Below, one piece after another: positions 4,663-59,112 of a stretch of 64,000 nt of DNA. The DNA is from Collinsella aerofaciens (GTDB lineage Bacteria; Actinomycetota; Coriobacteriia; Coriobacteriales; Coriobacteriaceae). Positions within the stretch are counted from its first letter, which is position 1; each line of letters opens with the position of its first letter. Under the pieces are notes generated by a model. It saw nothing but the letters and a program-made list of their open reading frames with translations, searched no databases and was not told the origin of the DNA. The translations under genes and the position numbers were made by a program. The stretch covers positions 62,001 through 126,000 of the forward strand of contig NZ_SPFO01000005.1 in assembly GCF_005845035.1 (NCBI RefSeq), read 5' to 3'.

Positions 4663-4708
4663 CGGCTCGCGGGGCTGCCCCGCTCACATAACCTGCTCCC
4701 CATTTCTC

Positions 4709-4754
4709 AGCCGGGGGCGGCACGTCACACGACGCGCCGCCCCCGGCTTTTTTG
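4709..4754 (+). terminator. Terminator after lacG1
   Basis: AGCCGGGGGCGGC pairs with GCCGCCCCCGGCT around a 14-nt loop and is followed by a T-run. It ends the first lac operon ahead of the convergent LacI gene at 4772. Confidence 0.85.
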
Positions 4755-4771
4755 GTTTTGGGTGGGCTGAT

Positions 4772-7892: not shown

Positions 7893-9314
7893 ATGACCAA
7901 TCCCATGAAGTTCCCCGACGGCTTTGTGTTTGGCGGCGCCACCGCCGCTTACCAGGTTGAGGGCGAGACCCGCACGCACGGCAAGGGCAAAGTGCCCTGG
8001 GACGATTTCCTGGCTGCTCAGGGTCGCTTCTCCCCCGACCCCGCAAGCGATTTCTACAACAAGTATCCGGTCGATATCGACCTGTGCCAGCGCTTCGGCA
8101 TCAACGGCATCCGCGTCTCCATCGCTTGGAGCCGCATCTTCCCCAACGGCACTGGTGAGATTAACCCCGAGGGCGTTGCCTTCTATCACGAGCTCTTTGC
8201 CACCTGCAACAAAGCCGGCGTTATCCCCTATGTCACGCTCGATCACTTTGACACTCCCGAGGCCTTCTACCAGGACGGTGGCGAGGGCTTCCTGACGCGC
8301 ACGACGATCGACGCCTTTGTCGAGTACGCCAAGTTCTGCTTTGCCGAGTTCACCGAGGTCAAGCACTGGTTTACCTTTAACGAGATTCCCGCGACCGCCG
8401 AGGGCAGCTTTATCGTCGGCAACTGGCCGCACGGCGAGAAGTATCGCCTGGACAAGGCCTTCCAGCTCATGCACAACATGATGGTGGCCCATGCCAAGGC
8501 CGTCGTCGCCTTCCACGAGGGCGGCTTTGAGGGCGAGATCGGCATTGTCCAGAACCTGGAGCCCAAGTATCCCCTCGATCCCAACAGTGTTGCCGACTGC
8601 GAGGCCGCCCGCATGGCCGACGTCATCAACAACCGCTGGGTACTCGACGCCACCTTTCGCGGCCACTATGCAGCCGACACCATGGAGGCTGCGACCAAGC
8701 TGGCCCATATCGCCGGCGGCGAGCTCGATGTTCGCGACGAGGACATCGCCGCGCTGACCGCCGCGCTCCCCTACAACGATTGCCTGGGCGTCAACACCTA
8801 CAAGTGCCAGTTCCTGCGTGCCGCCGAGGGCGAAAACGACATCAACCACAATGGCACTGGCGACAAGGGCTCCTCGCGCTGGTTCCTCAAGGGCGTGGGC
8901 GAGTCATGCGTGCGCAAAGGCGTACCCACCACCGACTGGGACTGGATCATCTATCCCGAGGGCCTGTACGACCTGCTGCTCCGCATTAAGAACGATTACC
9001 CCAACTATAAGAAGATCTACATCACCGAGAACGGCATGGGCTATAAGGACGACTTTGAGGACGGCTTTATCGACGACGCCCCTCGCATCGACTACATGCG
9101 CCAGCATCTCGCGTGGATCCTCAAGGCAATCGACGGCGGCGTGAACGTCGACGGCTACTTTGTGTGGTCGCTGCAGGACCAGTTCTCCTGGACCAACGGC
9201 TACAACAAGCGCTACGGTCTGTTCTACATCGACTTCGAGACCCAGAAGCGCTATCCCAAGGCGAGCGCGTACTGGTACAAGAACGTCTCGGAGACCGGCC
9301 TGCTCATGGCCTAG
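7893..9314 (+). CDS. lacG: 6-phospho-beta-galactosidase (LacG-like, GH1), copy 2
   Basis: A 473-residue GH1 enzyme closely collinear with the copy at 3223-4662. Acid/base Glu164 lies in TFNEIP and the nucleophile Glu379 in ITENGMG. The phosphate-binding loop FSWTNGYNKRYG is identical to copy 1, so a 6-phosphorylated galactoside is again the expected substrate. AAAGGATG precedes the ATG. It is the last gene of lac module 2 and is followed by a strong terminator. The main differences from copy 1 are around the aglycone side (for example the DHFDTPEAFYQ region), consistent with, but not proof of, altered aglycone preference. Confidence 0.9.
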   Translation: MTNPMKFPDGFVFGGATAAYQVEGETRTHGKGKVPWDDFLAAQGRFSPDPASDFYNKYPVDIDLCQRFGINGIRVSIAWSRIFPNGTGEINPEGVAFYHELFATCNKAGVIPYVTLDHFDTPEAFYQDGGEGFLTRTTIDAFVEYAKFCFAEFTEVKHWFTFNEIPATAEGSFIVGNWPHGEKYRLDKAFQLMHNMMVAHAKAVVAFHEGGFEGEIGIVQNLEPKYPLDPNSVADCEAARMADVINNRWVLDATFRGHYAADTMEAATKLAHIAGGELDVRDEDIAALTAALPYNDCLGVNTYKCQFLRAAEGENDINHNGTGDKGSSRWFLKGVGESCVRKGVPTTDWDWIIYPEGLYDLLLRIKNDYPNYKKIYITENGMGYKDDFEDGFIDDAPRIDYMRQHLAWILKAIDGGVNVDGYFVWSLQDQFSWTNGYNKRYGLFYIDFETQKRYPKASAYWYKNVSETGLLMA

Positions 9315-9336: not shown

Positions 9337-9378
9337 GGCCGCATGCGAATCCCCCACGGGTTCGCATGCGGCCTTTTT
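9337..9378 (+). terminator. Terminator after lacG2
   Basis: GGCCGCATGCGAA(T/C)CC-type stem pairing with GGGTTCGCATGCGGCC, followed by six T residues. Ends lac module 2. Confidence 0.88.
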
Positions 9379-9408: not shown

Positions 9409-9705
9409 GTCTCGATCTGCAACATCTAGCCGAGTATTTCGGCCCTAGTTGTTACAAATCGAGACAAACAGAACGCCCGAGCAGAAATATCTAAATCTGT
9501 AACACGTAGCCCACTTTCGACCGTCTACCTGTTACAGATCAAGACAAACGCACAGGTCAATCCGCTCAATCTCGATCTGTAACATCTAGCCGAGCTTTTC
9601 GGTCCCAGTTGTTACAGATTGAGACAAACGGAATCGGCCAGGCAGAAAATCTAAATCTGTAACATCTAACGAGCATTTGATCGCCTAGTTGTTACAGATC
9701 GAGAC
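9409..9705. repeat. Array of four palindromic 57-bp units at exactly 80-bp period
   Basis: Units start at 9409, 9489, 9569 and 9649; each is 57 bp and separated by 23 bp. Every unit is itself an inverted repeat: the left arm reads about (T)CTCGATCTGTAACA and the right arm TGTTACAGATCGAGA. Units 1 and 3 share the CTCGATCTG left arm and units 2 and 4 share CTAAATCTG, and the spacers also match in alternation, so the real period is a 160-bp dimer. Spacers are not independent, which argues against CRISPR. The array follows the lacG2 terminator and precedes the AlbA_2 gene. Function unknown: structured RNA, protein-binding array or mobile-element residue are all possible. Confidence 0.85.
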
Positions 9706-9919
9706 AATCAGATGGTCAAATCCTCACTTTCCAGGCAGCTACGAAGCGCTCCTCTTTCTTAATTATTATCGGCATCACGAACACACTTCGGTATCTTTTA
9801 ATGCCAAAATGATACCGAAAGCGTGTTCGAGAATACGGATAATTCCATGCGTTAGCCCAATCAAGCCCCAGGCTTACAAACTCCGTTATTGTTCAGAATG
9901 CCAATGCATTCGCGTTTGC

Positions 9920-10029
9920 GCGTCATTTCGCGTCACTTTGACGCGCATAATGACACGCAAATTTTTTCGTGTCATAATTTTGACGCGTAAAATGACGTGT
10001 AAAATTTTTACGTGTTATTTTTCACGTCA
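9920..10029. promoter_or_regulatory. Cluster of TGACRYG half-sites upstream of the AlbA_2 gene
   Basis: About nine copies of TGACGCG, TGACACG, TGACGTG or their complements fall in 110 bp in both orientations (for example 9939-9945, 9951-9957, 9981-9987, 9993-9999, with complements near 9920, 9931, 9969, 10011 and 10024). The stretch is AT-rich and ends 25 bp before the start codon. The natural reading is an operator or nucleoprotein array, perhaps bound by the downstream protein itself. Confidence 0.6.
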
Positions 10030-10054: not shown

Positions 10055-11311
10055 ATGCAAGAATCCAAAGATCTTGAATTCAAGGAATGCGTCACCAATT
10101 CGTTCCTTAAAACCGTCTCCGCTTATGCAAATGGCACGGGAGGACGCGTTCTATTTGGAATTAACGACGACGGAGAAGCCGTTGGCCTCGATGACCCCAA
10201 GCAGACCTGCCTGGATATCGAAAACAAGATTAACGATTCGATCATCCCCCAGCCCGATTACTCCCTAAAGATCGACGAGCCCGATGCAACCGTGGAGCTT
10301 ACGGTCTTTCCCGGCAGATCGAAGCCTTACCTATACCGCTCGAAGGCATACAAGCGCAATGACACCGCGACCATTCCAGTTGATACCCTAGGCCTTTCGC
10401 GTCTTGTACTCGAGGGTCAAAACCTCTCCTTTGAGCAGCTCCCGGCAAACAAACAAGATTTATCTTTCACCGTTTTAGAGAATCGTCTAACAGCAAAACT
10501 TTCGCTTCAGTCATTCACAACCGATACTCTCAAAACCCTTGGCCTGCTTGATGAAACCGGAACCTACAACAACGCGGCAGAACTGCTCGCGGACGAGAAT
10601 GGCTTCCCGGGTATCGACATCGCAGTGTTTGGTGAAACTATCAACCTCATTAAGCAGCGCAAGACTCTTGAACATGCATCCGTTCTAGCGGAAATTGACG
10701 GAGCCCTTGAGCTTTTCGAAGCCCAGTACTGCTACGAAGAGATCCAGGGGATGGAGCGGATCCGCAAGGAGCTCATTCCGCTCGAAGCATTCCGCGAGGC
10801 CATTACCAATGCAGTCGTTCATAGGACTTGGGATGCGCCCGCACACATCCGCATCTCGATGTTCGACGACCGTGTGGAAGTCGCTTCGCCCGGCGGCTTG
10901 CCGGCAAGCATGACCGTCGATGAATATCTGTCCGACATGCTATCCGTTAGACGCAATCGTATTCTTGCCGAAGTCTTTTTGCGCCTGGGTCTTATCGAAG
11001 CCTTTGGAACGGGCATCATGCGAATTCGCGATACCTATAAGGACAGCGTCAGAAAGCCCCGGTTTCAAGTTTCGGATAACGCCATTGTGGTAACACTTCC
11101 CCTACTCATGGATAACCCGGGGCTCAAAGGCGACGAACTTATCGTATTCGGACTGCTGAGCGGAGTACACCCTCAATCGACAAGCGAGCTTGCGGCCAAA
11201 GTCACCTTTAGTCGCTCGAAGCTTCTTCGCATCCTCAAAAAACTCGTTGAGACAGGCCTGGCGACAGTTGAAGGCACCGGCAGAGGGCAGAAGTATCGCC
11301 TGCTACGCTAG
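10055..11311 (+). CDS. AlbA_2 (Schlafen-type) DNA-binding protein with ATPase-like domain
   Basis: A 418-residue putative regulator or nucleic-acid-binding protein. The N-terminal 120 residues carry the AlbA_2 pattern (ESKDLEFKE, then NGTGGRVLFGINDDGEAVG). Residues near 245-300 contain EAFREAITNAVVHR and IRISMFDDRVEVASPGG, the pattern of the histidine-kinase-like ATP-binding domain usual in these proteins, and the C-terminus is a winged helix. An upstream in-frame extension exists, but ATG 10055 begins exactly at the domain and follows AACGGAGC. It lies in AT-richer DNA next to two repeat arrays, and abuts the convergent DeoR gene with no gap. Family members are often annotated as regulators; a defence or mobile-element role is speculation. 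Confidence 0.8.
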   Translation: MQESKDLEFKECVTNSFLKTVSAYANGTGGRVLFGINDDGEAVGLDDPKQTCLDIENKINDSIIPQPDYSLKIDEPDATVELTVFPGRSKPYLYRSKAYKRNDTATIPVDTLGLSRLVLEGQNLSFEQLPANKQDLSFTVLENRLTAKLSLQSFTTDTLKTLGLLDETGTYNNAAELLADENGFPGIDIAVFGETINLIKQRKTLEHASVLAEIDGALELFEAQYCYEEIQGMERIRKELIPLEAFREAITNAVVHRTWDAPAHIRISMFDDRVEVASPGGLPASMTVDEYLSDMLSVRRNRILAEVFLRLGLIEAFGTGIMRIRDTYKDSVRKPRFQVSDNAIVVTLPLLMDNPGLKGDELIVFGLLSGVHPQSTSELAAKVTFSRSKLLRILKKLVETGLATVEGTGRGQKYRLLR

Positions 11312-33882: not shown

Positions 33883-34331
33883 CAAGCTGCCCCTCACCAT
33901 GTCCACTACCCTGCCTTCTGTGTCGTATACAATCCGTGCGTTGCGCGGAATAACGGGTGTTCCCACCAGCTGACCTGGTATTTGACCCCACACTTGCGCA
34001 CCGGGGTGTTTGCTCGGGAGGCCATAGCCACCTTCACGACTGGCCCGCTCGCCCGCGAGGCGGTATTGCCCCAAAGAAAGTAGAACGGACGGTGCGGCTT
34101 ACATCTAGGACGCGCCATGATCGCGCCGCGCGCACGCGGTCGCTTACGTGGATCCCTTTGACCGCGTCTGTCTTGGACTAGGATGGACATTTCGTCCGTC
34201 CGCAACCACAGCCTGGCAGGAACGTAGCGCATTATAGCTAAGTTCAAGCTAAAGTTTAAGGTTAGGGGCGCCATTCGCACCGTGAGCATAGATTTTGCAG
34301 GTCGGAGCGGACCATTCGTGCCCCCATGAAG

Positions 34332-58961: not shown

Positions 58962-58993
58962 CTCTGGCTAGTAACGACAATCAAAAAGCAACA

Positions 58994-59027
58994 AGGGGCT
59001 CCCCCGTTCATTAACGGAGGAGCCCCT
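58994..59027. terminator. Hairpin between the two core elements
   Basis: AGGGGCTCCCCCGTT and AACGGAGGAGCCCCT form a 15-bp stem with one mismatch and a CATT loop. There is no strong T-run. It may be a terminator for convergent manA and pcrA transcripts. Confidence 0.55.
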
Positions 59028-59112
59028 ACTCGTATCTATATATCAGCCCACCCGGCTCTCCAGACCAAAAAGACGAACGAGCAGAGCGACGTTCGCAAGC
59101 AACGTTATCCAA

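Follow-up and report, generated by a model that had tools for sequence, protein, structure and literature searches.

What is the palindromic array that lies between two genes of Collinsella aerofaciens, and what could maintain it? We addressed this question in a 64,000-nucleotide stretch of DNA (hereafter the window), where an initial annotation had described four 57-bp units starting at 9409, repeated with an exact 80-bp period and organized as 160-bp dimers. It had offered three guesses at the nature of the array, namely a functional nucleoprotein array, a tandem structured RNA or an excision substrate resembling integron attC sites, and had linked it to a nearby gene for an AlbA_2 protein.

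Architecture of the array in the window

The array spans 9410–9704 and is composed of four 55-bp units, each followed by 25 bp, with a start-to-start distance of exactly 80 bp. This confirms the annotated palindromic array and its period, with the unit size and first position corrected to 55 bp and 9410. Every unit follows the formula TCTCRATCTGTAACA-N25-TGTTACAGATYGAGA, in which two inverted 15-bp arms are set 25 bp apart, and since the gaps between units likewise measure 25 bp, the half-site orientation flips at each 40-bp step. Unit 1 (9410–9464) consists of the arm TCTCGATCTGCAACA (9410–9424), a loop (9425–9449) and the arm TGTTACAAATCGAGA (9450–9464), with two mismatches within the ten-base arm cores. 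It is followed by a 25-bp spacer beginning CAAAC (9465–9489), unit 2 (9490–9544), a second 25-bp spacer (9545–9569), unit 3 (9570–9624), a third spacer of the same length (9625–9649) and unit 4 (9650–9704).

The dimeric structure proposed earlier is also real. Unit 3 is the closest to unit 1: the repeat at unit 1 shares 78% identity with the repeat at unit 3 and 63% with the one at unit 2, and Tandem Repeats Finder (TRF) reports 81% matches for period 160 compared to 71% for period 80. In L115 and L125, two relatives with two units here, both outer flanks are similar to those of the array in the window, which fits the gain or loss of a 160-bp block. Based on this flank similarity, the array in the window may be a duplicated two-unit block that was altered afterwards by recombination.

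A 16-pair intrinsic terminator (9337–9373, + strand) lies 3′ of the upstream gene, between its transcription unit and the array, in agreement with the annotated position of the array after a terminator. The upstream gene (7893–9314, +), the conserved left neighbour of the array in relatives, encodes a 473-aa protein that from our reading of its sequence is presumably family 1 glycosidase-like. The slot to the right is occupied by an accessory gene (10055–11311, +) for a Schlafen AlbA_2/RecG-C-like protein. The suggested association with AlbA_2 does not hold, as the protein borders only the window array among the ~18 array groups of its own genome, and its cluster (c99) adjoins an array only in the window and in L136. 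At the position of the window array, L121, L124, L115 and L267 have the array without AlbA_2, and L125 and G001 have a Fic gene in its place. These arrays of relatives exclude AlbA_2 as the partner of the array; its gene is an occasional accessory neighbour, outside the array system.

The DNA directly upstream of the AlbA_2 gene contains a palindrome that looks like an operator, TTCGGTATCTTTT...AAATGATACCGAA, and a repeat starting TTTGACGCG in two copies (9787–9819 and 9937–10009). GGTATC/GATACC palindromes recur in the same slot of L115, L125 (before Fic) and L136, which suggests that the accessory genes swapped at this slot have a common promoter region. Elsewhere in the window, Rfam searches returned a raiA RNA at 33961–34221 on the − strand (145.7 bits, gathering score 101.3) and a match to Ref55 (Enterococcus sRNA 55) at 58989–59042, also on the − strand, the latter unexpected in Collinsella and at 45.5 bits barely above its gathering score.

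A dispersed family characteristic of one Collinsella clade

A search of the genome of origin with the array as query returned 40 matches at many places. The exact unit pattern occurs 36 times in this genome, and 46 units in ~18 intergenic groups are found when up to three mismatches are allowed, compared to none for a reversed control pattern in either case. These units keep N25 loops and steps of 79–81 bp; across Collinsella loci, the N25 loop is present in 505 of 512 unit occurrences. The same genome contains 80 exact arms, and because 78 of them have an inverted partner (the remaining two being edge copies), the arm pair is the apparent functional unit.

Within the genus, exact unit matches were found in 26 of 45 genomes: 24 have 19–52 matches each, G038 and G039 one each, and the others none. 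Matches from a family-level search were confined to the genus Collinsella (25 of 67 genomes), and among the matches listed in a GTDB scan all multi-unit loci were titled Collinsella, many of them C. aerofaciens. A clpC tree of 28 genomes placed the ten array-positive genomes in one clade (support 100/100), with an array-negative sister (G014). The array is one member of a dispersed intergenic family that belongs to a single Collinsella clade, that of the C. aerofaciens group. In G017 and G039, lone units sit in clpC upstream DNA near-identical to that of the array clade, and on this basis were likely acquired by horizontal transfer.

Among the matches listed are also isolated ones from other phyla and from viral contigs, most of which look like chance. 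One viral contig match, in a Collinsella prophage from IMG/VR (L177:1–2289), was considered as phage DNA and rejected, since it falls in the host flank of the prophage, whose integrase end lies ~110 bp past an array. The literature that we searched, with partial coverage, yielded no description of the motif or of a Collinsella repeat family.

Arrays lie between genes and vary by whole units

Genes predicted around the arrays of G000, G001 and G002 by a simple hexamer gene finder do not overlap the arrays. The neighbours are unrelated core genes (glutamate synthase, Nramp, Clp ATPase, DXS, RF3, phosphorylase, aconitase and EF-Tu), and array positions recur across species. Conserved palindromic arms, invariant spacing and many divergent sites would suit operators of one transcription regulator with a regulon. 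We nevertheless regard such a regulon as distinctly unlikely: over 40 flank-pair classes convergent arrays (14) are as common as divergent ones (12), the other 14 being tandem; arrays are at least 86 bp from a gene start (median 193 bp, by site median) and often near stops (median 88 bp); and the neighbouring genes have no common function. A Noc-like, origin-proximal distribution, of the sort seen for some architectural sites, was also considered and set aside, clustering toward the replication origin being weak (Rayleigh p 0.04–0.05 with sites unmerged and 0.1–0.4 after merging close sites).

That the unit occurs in other Collinsella genomes in variable number, a point raised by the initial annotation, is evident at individual positions as well. 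Between the genes for a DAO-type oxidoreductase and a zinc-ribbon protein, seven genomes have 1, 2, 2, 4, 5, 7 and 8 units, respectively, and a position with three units in G002 (L267) has none in the window (at about 4663–4771). At the DXS spacer, one genome (L144) has lost precisely one 80-bp unit through a deletion that ends within arms, and two alternative loops occur in the third unit between identical flanks, as would be expected from arm–arm recombination.

Such events, together with the accessory genes, could indicate that recombination between arms makes arrays hot spots at which genes insert or invert. The surroundings of arrays, including segments enclosed by two of them, often hold accessory genes (those for AlbA_2, Fic, a 364-aa protein lacking a Pfam match, an AAA ATPase and a HipA-like protein that has an HTH_17 domain), one gene enclosed by two arrays is oppositely oriented in G000 and G001, and the whole-unit deletion in L144 ends inside arms. 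However, the AAA-ATPase gene insertion at L248:4053–5529 is bounded by a duplicated stretch, its right copy one unit shorter, and because the duplication takes in the 3′ portion of the preceding gene as well as the array, the ATPase gene probably entered through flanking homology and not by cutting at an arm. Other inserts adjoin one array without a second, array positions are constant across species, and the prophage junction in L177 falls outside its array. Repeats recombine passively in any case, and a role of the arrays as hot spots appears very unlikely to us.

Several features near the arrays deserve mention in their own right. The 364-aa protein at L250:11909–13003 lies between two arrays, as does a similar protein in G002 (L263); searches of Pfam, NCBIfam and PHROGs with the L250 protein gave no match, and by eye its C-terminal part looks nuclease-like. 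A homologous small membrane-like protein is found between arrays at L249:3015–3689 and L243:5113–5823, in opposite orientations in the two species, so that an inversion of the segment between the arrays is possible. A second dispersed palindrome, CCACCACAAAGGTGCCTGTCCCCTTTGTGGTGG, is present at L248, L100, L272 and DXS spacers; in 19 of 111 loci its core, GGTGCCTGTCCCC, is no more than 300 bp away from arrays, and a check of six Y1 transposase genes showed no copy of it next to them.

Sequence constraint points to a double-stranded binding site

The consensus of 387 units reads TCTCRATCTGTAACA NN TAG N6 WWW N6 CTA NN TGTTACAGATYGAGA, with unit ends of the form TCTC...GAGA and an A/T-rich stretch outside. 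Each unit is foldable into a hairpin, with a consensus energy of −12.3 kcal/mol, and the array might be a tandem structured RNA of hairpins with 15-bp stems. The pairing evidence contradicts this suggestion. First, among 45 units of the own genome the consensus stem has no compensatory pairs, and covariation in the extended stem is lower than in all 500 shuffles. Second, when the R/Y position (the purine at position 4 of the arm) is compared with its partner position, A–C (88) and G–T (81) combinations stand against G–C (102) and A–T (94), a weak excess with z of ~2. Third, several loop positions pair less than chance over all units (z about −6 to −11.5). Orthologous units are related by descent and not independent; repeating the pairing test on a reduced set of 100 dissimilar units preserved the anti-complementarity of the loops (z to −4.7), which may in part be due to long palindromes being unstable and not to recognition by a protein. 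Partner positions hardly covary, which argues against a palindrome that works as RNA or single-stranded DNA. With no Rfam match to the array at gathering threshold (sub-threshold miRNA matches only), a location after a terminator and no relation between array orientation and genes, the structured RNA was rejected as highly improbable.

The excision substrate fares no better. Units share with integron attC sites the superficial AAC...GTT ends, inverted arms and a variable centre, but they form 80-bp tandems without cassettes, and their arms read CTGTAAC/GTTACAG where attC R boxes read RYYYAAC/GTTRRRY. The integron integrase model TIGR02249 has no match above cut-off in six array-positive genomes, its weak matches there being like those in 14 control genomes. 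Both observations rule out an integron attC, and the L248 insertion, which did not occur at an arm, lends an excision substrate no support.

Substitutions between orthologous units reveal where constraint acts. The mismatch rate is 0.01–0.03 in the arms, the free positions 3 and 4 aside (0.01 for TCT and 0.03 for ATCTGTAACA), compared to 0.34 at loop positions 20–25 and 0.54 in the outer flank. The central A/T triplet has an intermediate rate of 0.11, and 390 of its 502 changes exchange A and T while none exchanges C and G. Similarly, the outer tetrad of three A/T positions and one purine shows 1930 A↔T against 10 C↔G changes. Retention of A/T with free base identity is a mark of indirect readout, here a putative one. 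Outside the arms, the strongest component of the GC profile is at 10 bp (0.93 compared to a shuffle mean of 0.06, with 0 of 500 shuffles as high); because the profile is 80-bp-periodic, only harmonics of 80 can appear, and the value of 10.0 is separable from 11.4 and 8.9 and not from 10.5. Taken together, the lack of compensatory pairs, the anti-complementary loops, the A↔T changes and the 10-bp harmonic argue for units as double-stranded, bent or wrapped putative protein-binding sites, and against an RNA hairpin or attC site.

Comparison with known repeat families

The closest parallels are the bacterial interspersed mosaic elements (BIMEs) built from REP palindromes in E. coli and others, which like the arrays are intergenic, with dispersed half-elements of alternating orientation and strain-variable number. 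A REP, however, is itself a hairpin, whereas the Collinsella arm is only a half-site and the paired stem is without compensatory change. A GTAG or CGTC end tag is part of the REP definition, and REPs favour tandem and convergent spacers (PMC3733652); the Collinsella units lack these tags, and their arrays are equally common in divergent spacers. At six Y1 loci in G000, G001 and G002, no arm lies within ~2 kb, unlike the REP-style flanking of RAYT genes, and Y1 genes are found in array-positive and array-negative genomes alike. On hairpin maintenance, end tag and RAYT flanking, membership in the REP/BIME group with RAYT was rejected.

The same data bear on whether a non-autonomous mobile repeat (REP/REPIN or MITE), having spread a single time in the ancestor of the clade, left the arrays behind as functionless remnants, their regular spacing mirroring the process that made the copies. 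Such an origin would account for arrays that are dispersed, intergenic, clade-specific and variable in presence and unit number, RAYT-like Y1 proteins are present in the genus, and half-loops from different sites resemble one another more than they do after column shuffling (232 compared to 143 pairs at ≥9 of 12). Unrelated sites nonetheless share few near-identical loops, and the Y1 genes, which occur without arrays too, are flanked by arms in none of the six cases checked. Moreover, arms stay near-invariant between orthologous arrays while loops drift, and the A/T-preserving substitutions in loops imply continued selection. We find functionless remnants rather unlikely.

BIME-2 elements are enriched in E. 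coli gyrase cleavage sites, whose extended motif is 130 bp long and degenerate, with phased 10-bp G/C variation (PMC6379681). Strong gyrase sites resemble the arrays in this phased ~10-bp G/C variation, in dyad symmetry and in signs of indirect readout (PMC6379681). The gyrase motif has no invariant arms, in contrast to the two near-invariant, sequence-specific 15-bp arms of each Collinsella unit, and a protein other than gyrase is therefore probably needed.

Pneumococcal BOX/RUP and similar small repeats are likewise short, dispersed, intergenic and lineage-specific. We know of none among repeats of this type that combines fixed 80-bp phasing with shape-constrained loops.

A proposed nucleoprotein array and a rejected candidate for its binding protein

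Of the three guesses in the initial annotation, the functional nucleoprotein array is the best supported. We consider it probable that the family forms clade-specific, BIME-like nucleoprotein arrays with an architectural or topological role, in which a dimeric protein occupies the paired arms and the DNA is bent or wrapped. Each unit would be a double-stranded binding site, whose two inverted 15-bp arms are contacted by a sequence-specific protein acting probably as a dimer, or else as an oligomer; this much we infer from sequence constraint. The DNA between the arms would be bent or wrapped, as the 10-bp phasing suggests, its minor groove facing inward at A/T triplets and outward at G/C. Repeating in tandem every 80 bp, or eight 10-bp turns, the units would present all their arms on the same face of the DNA and form a regular nucleoprotein array between transcription units. 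Its use would most likely lie in chromosome architecture or topology, comparable to that of BIME-2 gyrase sites; this role, pointed to by the position between genes and the BIME analogy, and any part played by gyrase are speculative. Less probably, the family would be a set of sequence-encoded, nucleosome-like positioning arrays, in which a clade-specific protein would wrap DNA at 80 bp (8 × 10 bp) into insulator-like blocks between transcription units.

One candidate for the binding protein emerged from gene content. An HTH_17 gene (c60) next to the EF-Tu array has a homologue in 23 of 24 array-positive genomes and in 2 of 21 others. We did not take it as the binder, because G008 has arrays without c60 and the profile follows the clade, as that of any clade-specific gene would. 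The c60 protein also resembles, as we read its sequence, a HipA-type kinase with an NSDRHxxNFG motif.

Implications for Collinsella biology

Collinsella aerofaciens is common among the bacteria of the human gut, and each genome of its group holds ~20–50 precisely spaced, selectively maintained units that are absent from sister species. The presence of such maintained palindromic units in the array clade, and their absence from its sister species, implies a putative DNA-binding system with a single origin in this clade, for which we found no match among known families. With constraints as clean as these (arms, 25-bp gaps, A/T triplets and 10-bp phase), the array family makes it possible to test directly whether wrapped nucleoprotein arrays are encoded in bacterial sequence. 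Array DNA can be used as bait for the binding protein, and the variable unit number could serve strain typing.
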